Made by a program: the position numbers and the translations under genes | Source of the DNA: Glycomyces amatae | Lineage (GTDB): Bacteria; Actinomycetota; Actinomycetes; Mycobacteriales; Micromonosporaceae | Direction of reading: 5' to 3' | Assembly (NCBI RefSeq): GCF_020991375.1 | Contig: NZ_JAJLQZ010000002.1 | Span: 372,001-436,000 of the forward strand | DNA: 64,000 nucleotides | Shown: positions 13,545-21,965 of the stretch, piece after piece | Layout: the number at the start of each line of letters is the position of its first letter | How positions within the stretch are numbered: the stretch's first letter is position 1 | Notes under the pieces: generated by a model | Database searches by the model: none | What the model saw: the letters and a program-made list of their open reading frames with translations, nothing else | What the model was told of the DNA's origin: nothing

Positions 13545-16040
13545 TCAGAGGCTCCAGACCTCCACGAGGCCGTCGGCGGTGCCGACGAGGACGACCGGGT
13601 GGCCGTCGACCGCCCCGACGGAGGCGGACCGGATCTCGCCCTCGCCGGTGTGCGCGGCGAAGGTCGTGCCGATCTGGGCGCCGGTCTCGAGGTCGAACAC
13701 GCTCAGGCCCTTGTCGCCGACGATCACCGCGGCGGCCTTGCCGTCGAGCTCGGTGACCTGGACGCCGGTGACCGCCTGGAGGAGCTCCTGCCCGGCGGCG
13801 CCGTACGGTTCGGCGGTGGCCAGGTCCCAGGCCTGGACGGCGCCGTCGCCGGTGACGGTGACCGCGAGGGGCCTCCCGGCGGCGGTGCCGGCGCTGAAGG
13901 CGTTGACCTCCAGGCTGAGCTGGTCGAAGGTGCCGCCGACGGGCTCGCCGCTGCCGAGGTCGGACACGAAGACGCTGTTGTCGTAGACGCCGACCTGCCG
14001 CAGGGTGCCGTCGACGTCGGTGAGCACGCTGAAGTCGCTGTAGGAGAGGTCCGCGTCGCCGAGCACCGCGCCGGTGTACAGCTGCTTGACGTCGTAGTCG
14101 CTGATGTAGACGGGGGTGTCGTCCTGGACGCCGACCCAGTAGATCGTGTCGTAGCCCGCCTCGCGGGTGTTGATCGGGTTCTCGGGGTCGTCGAGGTACC
14201 AGACGGCGTCGGTGGTGTAGTCGCGGGAGAACGCCACCCAGCGGCCGTCGTACTCGAAGACCGAGAGGTGCTCGACGACGTCCTTGTGGCCGCGGAAGGC
14301 GCCCAGCTCCTCGCCGGTCGCCAGGTCCCAGACGCGGATGACCTTGTCCTCGCCCGCGGTGACCGCGACCGGGACGCCGTCGACCTGCCCGGTGCGGACC
14401 TGGGTGACGGCGCCGACGTGGGCCTGGGCCATGGCGGCGACCTGGTCGCCCTGGACCGCCTGGGCCAGGGGCACGAGGCCGTCGTCGTCGCCCGCGGAGG
14501 CCGAGCCGCCGTCGCCGTCCTCCTCGACCGCCTCGGCGCTCGGGTCGGCGTCGGCGGCGTTCTCGGTCGCCCCGTCGTCGCCCGCGATCGTGCCCTCGCC
14601 CTCGCCCTCGGGCAGGAACTGGAAGGCCACGAGCGCGCCCACGGCGAGGACGACGACCACCGCGGCGGCCGCGAGCGCCGTGACGCCCTGCCTGGACTTG
14701 ATCCAGGGGCCCTTCGCGGGCGGCGGGGCGGGCTGCGGGAACTGGCCGGTCGGGTGCGGGGGCGGCGACGGCTGGTGCGGCTGGGTGACCGGGCCGGGCA
14801 TGGCCGGGAGCGCCTGCGGGGTCGGCTGGGAGGGCGGCCGGGGCGCCGATTGGTGCGGCAGCGGCATGGTCTGGTTCGTGGCCGGGACGGCGGCCGGGGT
14901 GGCCTGCGGGGGCGCGGTCTGCGGGGGCAGGGCCGGGCTCGGGACCGAGACCGGGGAGCTGACGGTGTGCCGGGCGACCAGGCCGCCTTCGGAGACGGCC
15001 AGCTCGGGCTGCTCGATGGCGGCGGGGGCGATCCCGATCTCGCGGTGCAGCAGCGTGGCGACCAGGGGCATGCGGCTGGCCGCGCCGACGAGGAAGAGCC
15101 CGGTGATCTGCTCCTTCGCCAGGCCCGACTCGCGGATGACGCCCTGGGTGACGCGGAGGGTGCGCTCCACGAGCGGCTTGCAGACCTGCTCGACCTCGTC
15201 GCGGGTGAGGTGGGCGTCCACGTCGAGCAGGGGGATGGTGAGCTCGGTCGAGGCGCTGCGGGAGAGGCGCTCCTTGGCCTGGCGGACCTCCTCCATGAAC
15301 GCGGTGCGGTGGCGCAGGTCGGCGGGCTCGGTCGGGGCGGTGAGCCGGGCCCAGCGCTCGTCGTCCGTCTGGACGCTCGCGGCGAGGTGCTCGGCGAGGG
15401 CCTGGTCGAAGTCGAGGCCGCCGAGGTCGTCGGCGCCGTCGACGGCGAGCACGTCGAAGCCGTCGGGGCTGCGGCGCAGCACCGTGGCGTCGAAGGTGCC
15501 GCCGCCGAGGTCGTAGACGACGACGCCGGAGCCGGGCCCGACGTCGACCGCGAGGGTCTCGACGAAGTAGCTGGCGGCGGCGACGGGCTCGGCGACGAGG
15601 TCGACCCGGCCGAGCCCGGCCGCGGCGGCCGCGTCCGCGACGACGTGGCGGCGGGTCGGGCCCCAGGCGGCGGGGACGGTCACGGTGACCGGGCCGAGGC
15701 CGCCGAGGGTCTGCTCGCACTCGCGGGCGACGCGGCTGAGGACCGCGGCGATGACGCTGGTGACGGGGATCTCGGTCTCGCCGAGGAGGATCGAGGCGTC
15801 GTCGATGCGGCGCTTGGGGTTGGGCTCGTACCGGTCGGGCTTGCGCCGTCCCGAGTGGACGGCGTCGGCGCCGACGACCGGTCCGCCCTCGTCGTTCATG
15901 AACACCGCGGAGGGCAGCTGCGGTGAGCCGTCGAACAGCTGCTGGTGGACCCGCCCGTCGGCGCGGCGGATGGTGGCGACGGTGTGCGAGGTGCCGAAGT
16001 CGATGCTGATCGAGGCGGGCCGGGGGAGGCTGTTGGACAT
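13545..16040 (-). CDS. Membrane-anchored Hsp70-like ATPase with WD40-like C-terminal domain
   Basis: 831 aa fusion. Residues 1-358 are a DnaK/Hsp70-type actin-fold ATPase: SIDFGTSHTVA (phosphate 1), VTVPAAWGPTRRH, EPVAAASYF, VVYDLGGGTFDATVL (phosphate 2) and FLVGAASRMPLV (adenosine motif). Residues 362-444 are Pro/Gln-rich, 453-475 form one transmembrane helix, 478-530 are acidic, and 540-831 carry repeats such as DKVIRVWDLATGEELGAF and GAVQAWDLATAEP that fit a beta-propeller of WD40 type. No Hsp70 peptide-binding domain is present. The ATPase should be cytoplasmic and the propeller outside. ATG 16040 is preceded by TGAGGAC. The role (signal sensing or chaperone-like) is unknown. Confidence 0.85.
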   Translation of the reverse strand: MSNSLPRPASISIDFGTSHTVATIRRADGRVHQQLFDGSPQLPSAVFMNDEGGPVVGADAVHSGRRKPDRYEPNPKRRIDDASILLGETEIPVTSVIAAVLSRVARECEQTLGGLGPVTVTVPAAWGPTRRHVVADAAAAAGLGRVDLVAEPVAAASYFVETLAVDVGPGSGVVVYDLGGGTFDATVLRRSPDGFDVLAVDGADDLGGLDFDQALAEHLAASVQTDDERWARLTAPTEPADLRHRTAFMEEVRQAKERLSRSASTELTIPLLDVDAHLTRDEVEQVCKPLVERTLRVTQGVIRESGLAKEQITGLFLVGAASRMPLVATLLHREIGIAPAAIEQPELAVSEGGLVARHTVSSPVSVPSPALPPQTAPPQATPAAVPATNQTMPLPHQSAPRPPSQPTPQALPAMPGPVTQPHQPSPPPHPTGQFPQPAPPPAKGPWIKSRQGVTALAAAAVVVVLAVGALVAFQFLPEGEGEGTIAGDDGATENAADADPSAEAVEEDGDGGSASAGDDDGLVPLAQAVQGDQVAAMAQAHVGAVTQVRTGQVDGVPVAVTAGEDKVIRVWDLATGEELGAFRGHKDVVEHLSVFEYDGRWVAFSRDYTTDAVWYLDDPENPINTREAGYDTIYWVGVQDDTPVYISDYDVKQLYTGAVLGDADLSYSDFSVLTDVDGTLRQVGVYDNSVFVSDLGSGEPVGGTFDQLSLEVNAFSAGTAAGRPLAVTVTGDGAVQAWDLATAEPYGAAGQELLQAVTGVQVTELDGKAAAVIVGDKGLSVFDLETGAQIGTTFAAHTGEGEIRSASVGAVDGHPVVLVGTADGLVEVWSL

Positions 16041-16137
16041 GTCCTCACTGTAGTGACCGGGGGCCAGGGCCTGTTGTACAGGGAACCCCCGTACGGCTGG
16101 GCCGGAACGGGCCGGGGGCGCCTGCGAGAATTCCTCG

Positions 16138-17250
16138 GTGGGCATCCAGACGCAGTTGCGGCGCGCGGTGGCGCTGTTCAGGTTCGCCGCCCTGGGCTAC
16201 CCGGTGCTGCTCGGCGCCCTGTCGTTCGACGCGCTCGCGCACCCGGTCTGGGCGGTGCTGCTGGTCGCGGCGCTCGCCGCGTGGACCGGCGCGGTCAGCT
16301 ACCGGTACACCCGCAGGGGCGACGAGCCGCGGGTGCTCTACGCGGACCTCGCGGTCACGGCGCTGGCGGTCGCGGCCTCGGCGCGGGCCCTGGCGGTGTC
16401 CGGCGGCGCGGTGCCGATCTCGCTGGGGCCGTGGATAGCCGGGGCGGTGCTCTGCTGGGGCGCGGCGTGGGGGCGGCGCAGCGGCGCGGTCTCGGGCGGG
16501 GTGATCGCCGTGTTCGGGATGGTCTTCCGCGGCGGCGTCAGCGAGAACACCGTGAACGAGGCGGCGCTGCTGGTCCTGACCGGGTTCACCTTCGGGCACC
16601 TGGTGCGCCTCGGCGTGGAGGCCGAGGAGCGGACGCGGCGGGCGATCGAGCGCAGCGCCGCCGCGCGCGAGCGCGAGCGCCTCGCCCGCGACATCCACGA
16701 CTCCGTGCTCCAGGTGCTGGCGCTGGTCCAGCGGCGCGGCAACGAGATCGGCGGCGAGGCGGCCGAGCTGGGGCGGCTGGCGGGCCGCCAGGAGGAGGCG
16801 CTGCGCTCGCTCATCGTCTCCGAGTCGTACCGGCACCCGCTCGACGGGCGGCGCGACCTGCGGGAGCTGCTGGGGCGGCACGCGGGCGCGGCGGTGACGG
16901 TCGCGGCCCCGGCCACGCCGGTGCCGCTGCCGGCGCGGGCCGCCGGGGAGGTCGCGGCGGCGGTGGCGAGCGCGATCGACAATGTGCGCGAGCACTGCCC
17001 CGCGGGGACGCGGGTGTGGCTGCTGCTGGAGGACGACGGCGAGGCGGTCCACGTGACGGTCCGCGACGACGGCCCGGGCATGGCGCCGGGGCGGCTGGCC
17101 GAGGCCGCCGCCGAGGGCAGGCTCGGCGTGGCCCAGTCGATCCAGGGACGCGTCAGGGAGCTGGGCGGGACCGTCGCGGTCGTCTCGGCGCCCGGGAAGG
17201 GCACGGAGGTCGAGCTGCGCCTGCCGCGGCCCGCAGGAGGAGGGGACTGA
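16138..17250 (+). CDS. MacS-like sensor histidine kinase
   Basis: 370 aa NarL-class kinase. The N-terminal part has five or six hydrophobic helices (about 10-165), followed by the dimerisation/phosphoacceptor helix RLARDIHDSVLQVLALVQRRG (His in DIHDS) and a HATPase domain with the N box (ASAIDNVREH) and the G box DDGPGM. The phosphoacceptor sequence and the membrane domain resemble MacS of Streptomyces, the sensor of the MacRS system. GTG 16138 starts the gene. Its stop TGA (17248-17250) overlaps the ATG of the response regulator by one base, so the two are translationally coupled. Confidence 0.88.
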   Translation: MGIQTQLRRAVALFRFAALGYPVLLGALSFDALAHPVWAVLLVAALAAWTGAVSYRYTRRGDEPRVLYADLAVTALAVAASARALAVSGGAVPISLGPWIAGAVLCWGAAWGRRSGAVSGGVIAVFGMVFRGGVSENTVNEAALLVLTGFTFGHLVRLGVEAEERTRRAIERSAAARERERLARDIHDSVLQVLALVQRRGNEIGGEAAELGRLAGRQEEALRSLIVSESYRHPLDGRRDLRELLGRHAGAAVTVAAPATPVPLPARAAGEVAAAVASAIDNVREHCPAGTRVWLLLEDDGEAVHVTVRDDGPGMAPGRLAEAAAEGRLGVAQSIQGRVRELGGTVAVVSAPGKGTEVELRLPRPAGGGD

Positions 17251-17885
17251 TGGCGACGCTCATCGTGGTCGACGACCACCCGATCTGGCGCGAGGCGATC
17301 GGCCGGGACCTCCAGGGGGCGGGGCACCGGGTGCTGGCCGCGCTCGGGGAGGGCCGCGCGGCGCTCGCGGCGATCCGGGAGCTGCGGCCCGAGGTCGCGA
17401 TCCTCGACCTCCAGCTGCCGGACCTGTCCGGCGTGGCCGTGCTCCAGGGCCTCGGCGAGGACTGCCCGACGGCGGTCCTGGTGCTCTCGGCCAGCGGCGA
17501 GTCCGCCGACGTGCTCGAGGCGATCAAGGCCGGGGCGCGGGGCTACCTGGTGAAGTCGGCGTCGGCGGCCGAGCTGTCCGAGGCGGTGGAGCGGGTCGCG
17601 GCGGGCGACGCGGTCTTCACGCCGGGCCTGGCGGGCCTGGTGCTCGGCGAGTACCGCCGCCTGGCCAACGAGGCGTCCCCGCGGCGGCCGAAGCTCTCCG
17701 AGCGGGAGACCGAGGTGCTGCGGCTGGTCGCGAAGGGGCTGGCCTACCGGGAGATCGCCGAGCGGCTGTTCCTGTCGCAGCGGACGGTGCAGAACCACGT
17801 GCAGCACATCCTCACCAAGCTCCAGCTGCACAATAGAGCGCAGCTGGTGCGGTACGCGATCGAGCAGGGCATCGACGGGGACTGA
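17250..17885 (+). CDS. LuxR/NarL-family response regulator (MacR-like)
   Basis: 211 aa. Receiver domain with VVDDHPIWREAI (acidic pocket), phosphoacceptor Asp in AILDLQLPDLSG, and Lys in GYLVKSAS; C-terminal NarL helix-turn-helix LSERETEVLRLVAKGLAYREIAERLF then SQRTVQNHVQHILTKL. It pairs with the kinase just upstream. The next gene on the same strand starts 93 bases later, and the gap holds two TGAGTA-type half-sites like those reported for MacR, so the ketosynthase fusion gene is a likely target. Confidence 0.93.
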   Translation: MATLIVVDDHPIWREAIGRDLQGAGHRVLAALGEGRAALAAIRELRPEVAILDLQLPDLSGVAVLQGLGEDCPTAVLVLSASGESADVLEAIKAGARGYLVKSASAAELSEAVERVAAGDAVFTPGLAGLVLGEYRRLANEASPRRPKLSERETEVLRLVAKGLAYREIAERLFLSQRTVQNHVQHILTKLQLHNRAQLVRYAIEQGIDGD

Positions 17886-17937: not shown

Positions 17938-17978
17938 AGCCGATGCGCGGCGGGTCTGCGGTGTTGCTCAATGGAGGC

Positions 17979-19835
17979 ATGAACGCCTACATCACCGCGG
18001 CCGGCGCGTACCTCCCCGGCGACCCGGTCGGCAACGACGAGATCGCGGCGCGCCTCGGCGGCGTCGACGACCGGGGCGACCGGCTGCGCCGCCGCGTCCT
18101 CGCCGCCAACGGCATCGCCAAGCGCCACTACGCCCTCGACGCGCGGGGCCGCACCACGGAGCTGAACGAGGAGCTGGCCGCCGCCGCGCTGCGGGCGGCC
18201 CTGGAGGACCGCGGCGCCCGCCCGGGCGACCTCGACATGCTCGCCACCGCCACCACGCAGGGCGACCTGCTCGTGCCGGGCTTCGCGTCCATGGTGCACG
18301 GCCGCCTCGGCGGCGGCCCGATGCAGCTGCTGTCGGCCGCGGGGGTGTGCGCGTCGAGCCTGGCCGCGCTGGACGCGGCCGTCGCGAAGGTGCGCCTGGG
18401 CGACCGGCGCCGGGCGGCCGTGGTCGGCTCGGAGCTGTCCAGCCGGTGGCTGCGGGCCTCCCGGTTCAACGGCGGCGGGGACGCCGACGCGCACTTCCTG
18501 CGGTGGATGCTCTCCGACGGCGCCGGGGCCGTCCTGGTCGAGGACCGGCCCCGGGCCGACCGCCCGTCGCTGCGGGTCGACTGGGTCCGCACCGTCTCGC
18601 TCGCGCACGAGCACCGGGTGGTGATGCGCGCGGGCATGGGCGAGGGCCCCGACCCGGCGGCGGGGCGCACCTGGCAGGACATGGGCAGCGCCGCCGCGGC
18701 CGAGCAGGCCGGGATGATGCTGCTGCGCCAGGACACGAGCGCCCTCGCCGCGCTGGCCGAGGCGGGGCTGCGCGAGTTCGACGCGCTCGCGAGGCAGGGC
18801 CTGGTCGACCTCGGGCGGCTCGACCACGTGCTGTGCCACTACTCGACGAACGCCTTCCGCGACCTCGTCTTCGCGAAGCTCGCCGAGACGGGGGCGGCGA
18901 TCGACACCGGGCGGTGGTTCTCGAACCTGGAGACGCGCGGCAACACCGGCGCGGCCTCCATCTTCATCGCGCTGGAGGAGTGCTGGCGGACCGGGCGGTT
19001 CGCGCCGGGCCAGACGGTCCTGCTGGCCGTCCCCGAGTCGGGGCGGTTCTCGTTCGGCTTCGCGCACCTGACCTGCGTGGGCGCGGAGGGCGGTGCGCCG
19101 GCGTCGGTCGCGCCGACCGCGACGGTGGCCGGGTCCTCCCCCGCCCGGGCGACCGCCTCGGGGGCCGCCGAGGCGGCCCCGGGCAGCGTGTTCGCCCGCC
19201 TGGACGAGGTGTGGCAGGACTTCGAGCGGCGCCTCGCCGAGGTCCCGGTCATGCGGCGCCTCGAGGAGGGCACCGCCACGCTCGAGGACTACAAGCGGCT
19301 GCTGTTCAACCTGCGGCAGCAGGTCGCCGACGGCGCCCGCTGGATCTCCCGGGCCGCCTCCAACTTCTCGGTGGACCTGTTCGACCTGCGCAGCGCCGCG
19401 ATCGGGCACGCCGCCGAGGAGCACCGCGACTTCATGCTCCTGGAGCAAAACTACGCGGCCTGCGGCGGCTCCCTCGAAGACATCCGCTCCGGCGAGAAGA
19501 ACATCGGCTCGGAGGCCTTGTCGGCGTACATGTTCCACACCGCGAGCCGGCCCGACCCGGTCGGGCTGCTGGGCGCGATGTTCGTCATCGAGGGCCTGGG
19601 CACCGGCAAGGCCGCCGGGTGGGCCGCCCGGTTCAAGGAGCTCCTGGACCTGCGCGACGACCAGGTCAGCTTCCTGGCCTACCACGGGGAGGCCGACGAC
19701 GACCACTTCGCGAAGCTCCAGGCGATCCTGGCCTCGCCGCTCGTCGACGCGACGGCCGCGGACGCGATCGTCAAGACCGCCAAGGTGGTCGCCCGCCTGT
19801 ACGCGCTCCAGCTGGAGGAGCTCGACCATGTCTGA
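17979..19835 (+). CDS. Ketosynthase III fused to a haem-oxygenase-like metal oxidase domain
   Basis: 618 aa two-domain enzyme. Residues 1-370 are a FabH/DarB-type 3-oxoacyl synthase III with the full triad: Cys124 in GVCASSLAALDA, His287 in LCHYSTNAF, Asn322 in RGNTGAASIF. A 30-residue Ala/Pro linker leads to residues 405-618, an iron-containing redox (haem-oxygenase-like) domain with HAAEEHRDFMLLEQNYAACG, VIEGLG (Glu538) and YHGEADDDHF (His569, Asp573, His576), candidate diiron ligands. The architecture predicts acyl condensation followed by oxidation. ATG 17979 fits the family N-terminus though GGAGG is only one base upstream; ATG 17943 is an alternative. Overlaps the next gene by 8 bases. 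Confidence 0.85.
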   Translation: MNAYITAAGAYLPGDPVGNDEIAARLGGVDDRGDRLRRRVLAANGIAKRHYALDARGRTTELNEELAAAALRAALEDRGARPGDLDMLATATTQGDLLVPGFASMVHGRLGGGPMQLLSAAGVCASSLAALDAAVAKVRLGDRRRAAVVGSELSSRWLRASRFNGGGDADAHFLRWMLSDGAGAVLVEDRPRADRPSLRVDWVRTVSLAHEHRVVMRAGMGEGPDPAAGRTWQDMGSAAAAEQAGMMLLRQDTSALAALAEAGLREFDALARQGLVDLGRLDHVLCHYSTNAFRDLVFAKLAETGAAIDTGRWFSNLETRGNTGAASIFIALEECWRTGRFAPGQTVLLAVPESGRFSFGFAHLTCVGAEGGAPASVAPTATVAGSSPARATASGAAEAAPGSVFARLDEVWQDFERRLAEVPVMRRLEEGTATLEDYKRLLFNLRQQVADGARWISRAASNFSVDLFDLRSAAIGHAAEEHRDFMLLEQNYAACGGSLEDIRSGEKNIGSEALSAYMFHTASRPDPVGLLGAMFVIEGLGTGKAAGWAARFKELLDLRDDQVSFLAYHGEADDDHFAKLQAILASPLVDATAADAIVKTAKVVARLYALQLEELDHV

Positions 19836-20655
19836 CCTCGCGGGCCCGCCGCTGTGGGACGCCGTGGTCGCCGACCCCTCGGTGCCGCTGGAGCGAGAGG
19901 TCGTGCGGATGATCGCCGAGGACCAGCGCGGATGGACGCGCACCTGGCTGTACCCGGTCGCCCGGCCCGTGTCGCGGGTCCTCGCCGTGGTCATCGTCGT
20001 CCTCAAGCGCCTGACGCCGGTGCGCTGGACCGCGCACCGGCTCATGGATCGGCTGTGCATCTGGTTCCTGCGCCGGTTCGTGTCCCCGCTCGCGGTCGAG
20101 CTGCTCATCCGGCACTTCGTGATCGAGACGAACCTGCTCAACTTCATCGTCCGCAACACCGCCACGCCGATTGCGCCGGTGGCGCTGCGCCCCGTGGACC
20201 TGGCCGGGCTCGGGAACAAGGCTGTGATCGAGCACGACGTCAACGTGTACGTGGTGCTCGCGGCCCTGGACATGACGCCGGCGGGTCCGTTGGACTACAG
20301 CGGTCTCGACATGCCGCCGCTGGACCCCGAGCCGCGGCGGCGGCGGCTCATGCGGCTGGACGTCCAGACCGCCCTGTGCCTCATGAACCTGCCGTTCGCC
20401 GCGTGCCTGACCCCCGAGGAGTACCGGCGGGCCGTCCACTCCATGCGGTTCGACGACTCGGTCCTGGCGATCCTCGCCGAGATCACCGGCGACCCGACGT
20501 TCCTGCGCTGGCAGAACGGGGACCTGTCAGTGCGGGCCGACTCCAACACCGACGTGCCGCGCGCGGTCTACCGGCACGCCGTGGTCTGCGAGTACGCGCA
20601 CGCCCAGTTGTGCAGGCTCGCGGCCCGGACCGACGCGGTGAGCGAGGCGGCGTAA
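19828..20655 (+). CDS. Unknown helical protein, partner of the ketosynthase fusion
   Basis: 275 aa, starting at ATG 19828 within the end of the upstream gene and behind GGAGGAG, so translation is coupled. One strongly hydrophobic helix lies near residues 38-56 (VSRVLAVVIVVL), followed by the segment LLIRHFVIETNLLNFIVRN, whose His/Glu/Asn residues look conserved-type, and IEHDVNVYVVLAALD. The rest is soluble and Arg-rich. No enzyme family was recognised. Tight coupling implies a shared pathway, perhaps as membrane tether, acyl carrier docking partner or modifying enzyme for the condensation product. Confidence 0.8.
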   Translation: MSDLAGPPLWDAVVADPSVPLEREVVRMIAEDQRGWTRTWLYPVARPVSRVLAVVIVVLKRLTPVRWTAHRLMDRLCIWFLRRFVSPLAVELLIRHFVIETNLLNFIVRNTATPIAPVALRPVDLAGLGNKAVIEHDVNVYVVLAALDMTPAGPLDYSGLDMPPLDPEPRRRRLMRLDVQTALCLMNLPFAACLTPEEYRRAVHSMRFDDSVLAILAEITGDPTFLRWQNGDLSVRADSNTDVPRAVYRHAVVCEYAHAQLCRLAARTDAVSEAA

Positions 20656-20789: not shown

Positions 20790-21965
20790 GTGCTTCTCCG
20801 GTACCGCTACCGTGTGTATCCGACTGCCCCGCAGCGAGCCTCGCTCGCGCGGGCATTCGGTTCTGCTCGGGTGGTGTACAACGATGCGGTGGCCGCGAGG
20901 AGGCACGCATTCGCGGAAGGCTTGGCGTTTCCGTCCACGGCGGCCTTGTCGAAGCAGTTGATCACCGAGGCGAAACGGACCCCGAAACGCTCGTGGCTGG
21001 CGGAAGTCTCGGCGGTGGTGTTGCAGCAGTCCCTCGCGGACTGCGACCGGGCCTACAGGAACTTTTTCGCCTCGCTGAAAGGAGCACGGCGGGGCCCACG
21101 CATGGGACCACCGAAGTTCAAGCGGCGCACTGGTACGCAGTCGATCCGCTTCACCCGCAACGCCCGGTTCGCCGTGCTCCATAGCGGGCGTTTGCGACTG
21201 CCGAAGGTCGGCGACCTGCGGGTGGCGTGGTCGCGGGAGCTGCCCTCCGAGCCGTCCTCGGTGACGATCGTCAAGTCCCCGACGGGGAAGTACTTTGCTA
21301 GTTTTGTGGTCGCGGTAGAGGACGGATCGCAGGAGCTGGAGCCGCTCGCCGACCCGGAAGCCGAGACCGGTGTCGATCTGGGGTTGAAGGACTTCGCGGT
21401 CCTGCGCGGTGGCAAGTCCATCGACAACCCGCGCTTCTTCCGGCGCCTGGAGCGGAAGCTGCGGAGAGAGCAACGGGCGTTGTCGCGGAAGATGAAGGGC
21501 TCGGCGAACCGGGCGAAAGCCCGTCTCGAAGTGGCGAAGGTCCACGAGAAGATTAGGCACACTCGCTCCGACTGGATCGACAAGCAAGTCCTGGACATTA
21601 TCCGCGAAAACCAAGCGGTCTATGTCGAGGGCCTGTGTGTCACAGGGCTCAGTCGAGGCCGGGCCGCGAAATCGATGTATGATGCGGCATTCGGGATGTT
21701 CCTGGCCCGGCTCGAATCCAAAACGGCGCGCACCGGGCGTACCTTTGCCCGGGTGGACCGGTTCTTTCCGTCGACGCGGTTGTGTTCGGAATGCGGAGCC
21801 CTCACCGGCCCAACCGGTTTGGAGGGCCTGAAGGTTCGGAAGTGGTCGTGCGGGTGCGGTGCGCATCACGATCGGGATGCGAACGCGGAGGTCAACATCC
21901 GCCGCGAGGGCAGACGCCTCGCCATGGAACGAGAACGGTTCGCCGCGGGGCTCGCGGAGAACTAA
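20790..21965 (+). CDS. tnpB: TnpB RNA-guided nuclease (IS605/IS607 family)
   Basis: 391 aa transposon-associated RNA-guided endonuclease, ancestor type of Cas12. The N-terminal RYRVYPTAPQ start, the RuvC residues Asp196 (GVDLGLKDF), Glu280 (VYVEGL) and Asp363 (HDRDANAEVNI), and the zinc ribbon CSEC (332-335) with CGC (354-356) are intact, so the protein looks active. TTG 20790 fits the family N-terminus. It works with an RNA from the 3' end of its own gene and the right end. It has more mixed third positions and more A/T than its neighbours, consistent with transfer. No TnpA accompanies it. Confidence 0.93.
   Translation: MLLRYRYRVYPTAPQRASLARAFGSARVVYNDAVAARRHAFAEGLAFPSTAALSKQLITEAKRTPKRSWLAEVSAVVLQQSLADCDRAYRNFFASLKGARRGPRMGPPKFKRRTGTQSIRFTRNARFAVLHSGRLRLPKVGDLRVAWSRELPSEPSSVTIVKSPTGKYFASFVVAVEDGSQELEPLADPEAETGVDLGLKDFAVLRGGKSIDNPRFFRRLERKLRREQRALSRKMKGSANRAKARLEVAKVHEKIRHTRSDWIDKQVLDIIRENQAVYVEGLCVTGLSRGRAAKSMYDAAFGMFLARLESKTARTGRTFARVDRFFPSTRLCSECGALTGPTGLEGLKVRKWSCGCGAHHDRDANAEVNIRREGRRLAMERERFAAGLAEN

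Follow-up and report, generated by a model that had tools for sequence, protein, structure and literature searches.

A ketosynthase III (KSIII) resembling DarB and StlD and a domain resembling the haem-oxygenase-like diiron oxidases (HDOs) travel together, fused or encoded by adjacent genes, in the company of a protein of the DUF6999 family. In the soil actinobacterium Glycomyces amatae, the unit lies within a window of 64 kb (the whole stretch of DNA that was analysed), where a ketosynthase (KS)–HDO fusion gene overlaps the gene for DUF6999. Our best explanation, held tentatively and at a little under an even chance, is that these proteins form the core of an undescribed, widespread lipid-type biosynthetic unit that combines DarB-like condensation, tethered O2-dependent oxidation and a DUF6999 partner. 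Every domain family involved is known. Among the literature matches listed, nothing was found on the assembly or its breadth, on the altered ligand set of the HDO or on the bond with DUF6999, and none of them describes a KSIII–HDO fusion; subscription papers lie mostly outside this literature, so that an earlier description may exist. Tethering of a KS to an HDO would narrow the substrate class ahead of any assay. The features of the locus are as follows.

16138–17250, + strand: histidine kinase with DUF5931, a possible regulator (Pfam)
17250–17885, + strand: LuxR-type response regulator, a possible regulator (Pfam)
17973–17977, + strand: GGAGG, probably the ribosome-binding site for the fusion gene (visible in the sequence itself)
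17979–19835, + strand: KS–HDO fusion gene, 618 residues, a single open reading frame
17979–19079, + strand: KSIII domain, residues 1–367, StlD/DarB-like, triad C124/H287/N322 (PF08545/PF08541 and StlD match)
19080–19187, + strand: linker, residues 368–403, low model confidence (AlphaFold2)
19188–19832, + strand: HDO-like domain, residues 404–618, PF14518 (Pfam, 3dde profile, invariant ligand positions)
19828–19835, + strand: 8-base overlap of the fusion gene and the DUF6999 gene (read directly in the sequence)
19828–20655, + strand: DUF6999 gene, 275 residues, all-helical (PF22523, predicted model)

The fusion gene runs from an ATG at 17979 to a stop codon at 19833–19835, and the DUF6999 gene starts with the ATG at 19828. 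The open reading frame, coordinates and residue numbers given in a first-pass annotation, made from the sequence alone, agree with the list of reading frames and with the sequence, as does the 8-base overlap that it described. Residues 372–397 of the linker have pLDDT values below 50 in the AlphaFold2 model. The genome contains one copy of the unit, whose three domains are 92% identical to those of G. harbinensis (847 columns). The upstream pair of DUF5931 histidine kinase and LuxR-type regulator is also present in two other Glycomycetaceae genera (L126 and L127). An IS605-type OrfB/TnpB with a Cas12f1-like TNB domain is located at 20790–21965, ∼130 bases downstream of DUF6999, and an Hsp70-like ATPase fused to WD40-type repeats is encoded on the opposite strand at 13545–16145.

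The KS domain matches both ACP_syn_III and ACP_syn_III_C above the Pfam cut-offs, and its triad is identical in all 89 loci with a full KS domain, a few of which are near copies. The FabH/DarB-like condensing enzyme with an intact Cys-His-Asn triad that had been proposed earlier is thus borne out. The nearest solved structure is StlD (5gk0; E-value 4.2e-60, 35% identity), with which the domain has the FLRWMLSDGAGA stretch in common in addition to the KSIII fold and the triad. In fold comparisons, the predicted model matches StlD (5gk2) with a Z-score of 46.8, followed by AbyA1 (38.1), PqsD and FabH (∼37), and OleA (36.5). StlD and DarB, of the isopropylstilbene and dialkylresorcinol pathways, make cyclohexanediones, which DarA then aromatises. 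The present KS differs from them in its fusion to an HDO domain, in having DUF6999 as a constant partner, and in its score against the NCBIfam StlD/DarB model PRK06816 (320.7 bits, under the cut-off of 450 bits). The related KS proteins of Collimonas (330.4 bits) and Pseudoalteromonas (372.1 bits) also fall below this cut-off. As a result, the KS is not filed as DarB, and formation of a cyclohexanedione is not assured, although the domain is likely to work like StlD/DarB. By eye, no gene for an acyl carrier protein or a DarA-like protein was noticed adjoining the unit. Stand-alone DarB-like KS proteins of Streptomyces, Prevotella and Bacteroides plasmids have other neighbours, which offer no common clue. 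In the Azoarcus dar cluster, genes are named DAR-cyclase and DAR-aromatase, and the words "desaturase" and "oxygenase" do not occur in the main text of the paper describing it (PMC3949708).

The first-pass annotation envisaged oxidation or oxidative cleavage of the condensed product in a lipid or alkene-like pathway. In an OleA/UndA-like route of this kind, the KS, acting like OleA of long-chain olefin synthesis, would make a beta-keto acid that the HDO domain would cleave oxidatively to a ketone or alkene. The product of UndA is an alkene. The KSIII fold is indeed common to OleA, and the fatty acid decarboxylase UndA belongs to the HDOs, according to an HDO review (PMC13108848). However, OleA is only 20% identical to the KS and lies about 10 Z units under StlD, so that we regard this route as improbable. 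Since the KS resembles StlD and not OleA, we favour a DarB-like product (a diketone or ring) over an alkene.

A scan of contigs gave 242 matching stretches, 209 of which encode relatives; the best of these yielded the 79 loci used for the counts of fused and split forms. KS and HDO lie in one frame in 65 of the 79 loci, including all 47 non-actinobacterial ones, and are adjacent genes in the remaining 14, all from Actinobacteria (Microbacterium, Cellulomonas, Isoptericola, Demequina and their kin). A joining of two genes by faulty sequencing or assembly, the only support for which is the existence of these split forms in other genera, is therefore refuted and retains a negligible probability. 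DUF6999 adjoins the KS/HDO genes in 78 of the 79 loci, while in L065 the contig ends too early to include it; the two genes are thus a conserved unit in relatives, one of the points on which the earlier proposal depended. The split form recurs on a Pseudoalteromonas plasmid, where the gene for a confirmed DUF6999 overlaps that of the HDO by 8 bases. In a tree of 74 rows, the fused or split state changes at least three times, the changes lying near long branches. The existence of split genes and these repeated changes suggest that both parts work as a pair. The tree leaves out 17 of 91 rows, namely 14 near copies and three with partial domains (among them the fused actinobacterial locus L056 of Brachybacterium); L065 was omitted where DUF6999 was needed, and L128 where KS and HDO were needed.

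Between Glycomyces species, purifying selection acts on the KS, on the HDO and on DUF6999, with dN/dS values of 0.157–0.313 in 15 comparisons (0.157–0.291 for the two domains of the fusion gene). The genes are closely packed: with start codons chosen by us throughout, the stop of the HDO gene and the start of DUF6999 overlap in 37 of 77 loci. Of 16 Glycomyces loci, 13 share the overlap of 8 bases, and 20 of the 45 loci from outside Actinobacteria overlap by 4 bases.

The unit is present in Actinomycetota, Pseudomonadota and Acidobacteriota, in many bacterial families. Counting the genome of G. amatae itself, DUF6999 occurs in 20 of 61 relatives, among them 18 of the 22 within the genus, and a sample of 396 genomes from the phylum contains four that have it, in all four cases with KS and HDO beside it. 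In the Collimonas phylum, it occurs in 9 of 398 genomes (seed counted), again always beside KS and HDO. The exception to this association is a second, partial DUF6999 in Cellulomonas (L128, 9001–9648; G464 contig 11, 22 kb), with no KS or HDO within 18.6 kb. A query with the KS alone found no second match at E≤1e-15 in 13 of 15 genomes with DUF6999. The genome of Caulobacter vibrioides, included as a control, matches DUF6999, PF14518, PF04116 and PF00487; adjacency was not seen there, and the unit is probably present, judging from these matches.

The second domain of the fusion protein matches Haem_oxygenas_2 (PF14518) at residues 487–608 with 43.6 bits (cut-off 28.9; E-value 3.8e-11), and the only solved structure reached by a profile of this domain is 3dde (E-value 1.8e-11). 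In published surveys of HDOs, the ligands of these enzymes comprise three histidines and three carboxylates from three helices, with a 3-His/4-carboxylate set in ∼25% (PMC13108848), and an E-H-X-H-D/E-H motif is found in ∼85% of HDO groups (PMC11363339). Only about a dozen HDOs have functional validation according to the former source, in whose main text, published in 2026, neither "ketosynthase" nor "fusion" occurs. Residues H477, E481, D484, E538, H569, D573 and H576 are identical in 90 of 90 loci, a few of which are near copies. They include the canonical helix-1 Glu (E481), the helix-2 Glu (E538) and the helix-3 H-x3-D-x2-H motif (H569/D573/H576), features shared, like PF14518 itself, with UndA, CADD, SznF and BesC. 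In contrast to these enzymes, the domain has Asp484 in place of the helix-1 His, an invariant His477, and a tether to a ketosynthase. The ligand pattern reported from the first inspection thus stands for six invariant residues (H477, E481, E538, H569, D573 and H576), while position 480, also named there, varies (Glu in 65 loci, Asp in 24 and Ala in one), and the canonical helix-1 His is Asp484.

None of the 90 loci keeps the helix-1 His, which is replaced by Asp484 throughout, whereas all 26 readable HDOs from elsewhere have His there. The control alignment for this comparison was drawn from 28 rows (6 of 30 loci, 20 regions, one PF14518 match of the own genome, and L105), several of which are close kin; five were dropped before alignment and one (L203) was in the wrong frame, leaving 22 readable, and four further readable HDOs complete the 26. 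At the level of sequence, the domain is shown to be HDO-like with a changed ligand set. His477 is located one helical turn ahead of Glu481 and could substitute for the missing helix-1 His. Contrary to this idea, 3dde has a His at the place equivalent to His477 as well as the canonical His. As the domain is without the canonical helix-1 His, its diiron site is only putative, and so is the presence of two irons. The departure of this ligand set from canonical HDOs also speaks against the OleA/UndA-like route discussed above.

The same substitution could mean that the domain is a metal-free or mononuclear helper, such as a cyclase or a product-release domain, and no dimetal oxygenase. Precedents for this exist within the fold: FlcD lacks a dimetal site (PMC11363339), and PQQ and thiazole enzymes of the same fold are metal-independent (PMC13108848). 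However, a metal-free domain would hardly keep the seven invariant positions, with a complete H-x3-D-x2-H motif, and we consider a helper role unlikely.

Two more PF14518 matches are found in the own genome outside the unit. One of them (G000:C55:68060-68590) has an internal TAA, possibly marking a broken HDO gene, and was left out of the control. A separate group of HDOs (L195–L200 and L204) has EEESD or EEETD...SH in helix 1 and HIHLDEDHH in helix 3, and its first two ligands are separated by a long insert.

The product of the second gene, which had been said to have no recognised family, matches PF22523 (DUF6999) over residues 6–264, scoring 275.9 bits where the cut-off is 27. Pfam describes this family as being of unknown function, and no paper mentioning "DUF6999" by name was found in the literature searched. 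The AlphaFold2 model is all-helical and of good confidence (pLDDT 87.3, pTM 0.87). A fold search found no match at E<0.001 in the PDB or BFVD, which does not prove a new fold; a profile search of the PDB gave no matches up to an E-value of 10, and VIA-align returned only adenylosuccinate lyase (Z 2.5). The possibility that DUF6999 is a hidden HDO was considered and rejected: five of 22 Foldseek rows are PolF/TenA proteins, but with E-values of 3.4–9.9 and TM-scores of 0.11–0.17, and the profile-versus-profile probability is 0.1%. Residues R95, H96, H136, D137, D209, H250 and E255 are invariant in the 88 loci with a full domain, where N139 is kept in 86 and H258 in 85; judging by their conservation, the invariant residues look catalytic or metal-binding. 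The most apolar stretch (residues 41–59, mean hydropathy 1.82) may be a membrane-facing helix that seats the protein on the membrane. If the lipid pathway reading is true, it would provide the first function for DUF6999.

These features allow a more specific proposal, namely an undescribed O2-dependent lipid pathway with two metalloproteins, a rewired HDO in cis to the KS and DUF6999 with a second metal site, which we regard as possible but rather doubtful. Here, His477, Glu481 and Asp484 would replace the helix-1 Glu and His to give a putative 3-His/4-carboxylate site, and H96, H136, D137, D209, H250 and E255 of DUF6999, mostly with H258, would form the putative second metal site.

The only recurrent close neighbours of the unit, judged by eye, are a membrane fatty acid hydroxylase and a fatty acid desaturase, which again does not favour the OleA/UndA-like route. 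Among the best 79 loci, both are present in 36 of the 47 non-actinobacterial ones, one only in ten and neither in one. The minimal two-gene pathway initially suggested is thus not supported, since 46 of these 47 loci add a hydroxylase and/or a desaturase, which points to an apolar, acyl-derived product. The family names come from Pfam matches of three representatives (PF04116 in L079 and L069, PF00487 in L081), the remaining loci being assigned by profiles built from the loci; NCBIfam gave no name for either enzyme. Eight more loci from the sample of the Collimonas phylum comprise five with both enzymes, one with the desaturase and two with neither. In the Acidobacteriota locus L077, all four genes are kept, rearranged into divergent groups. 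At the divergent locus L124, an MFS-acyltransferase-AMP-binding protein is located directly downstream and is again a lipid-handling protein. Contrary to our best explanation, neither membrane enzyme is found in any of the 32 actinobacterial loci among the best 79. The genome of G. amatae has no match to PF04116 and two matches to PF00487 elsewhere.

The same neighbours, the many bacterial families that carry the unit, and the two-component system upstream of it in Glycomycetaceae would also suit an ordinary branch of membrane lipid remodelling, for example during envelope stress or in the cold, in which the KS would prime synthesis as FabH does and no specialised product would be made. However, the occurrence of the unit is patchy (4/396 and 9/398 genomes) and the KS is closest to StlD, not FabH, which leaves little likelihood for such a role.

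Under the preferred explanation of a lipid-type biosynthetic unit, the KS would join two fatty-acyl thioesters via Cys124, with His287 and Asn322, giving either a beta-diketo compound or a ring similar to 1,3-cyclohexanedione. With bound iron and O2, the HDO domain tethered to the KS would then oxidise this product, still attached or already released, probably by dehydrogenation/aromatisation or hydroxylation rather than by alkene formation. DUF6999 may be a further enzyme of the pathway or may hand the lipid over, and might sit at the face of the membrane. The membrane fatty acid hydroxylase and desaturase of Pseudomonadota would alter the product or its chains further.

HDOs are coupled to other enzymes as well. 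Plasmid clusters, among them L105 (4488–6660), combine in Vibrio, Citrobacter, Pantoea and Variovorax a protein annotated as "thermostable hemolysin", an AMP-binding protein, an HDO and an SDR, and in Pseudoalteromonas (L133, 1465–3624) the AMP-binding protein and the HDO are fused. The AMP-binding protein of these clusters is probably an acyl-activating enzyme, so that here, too, an HDO would be coupled with a partner that probably handles acyl groups. They differ from the present unit in having canonical EExGH ligands, and neither a KS nor DUF6999 is annotated in the stretches covered.
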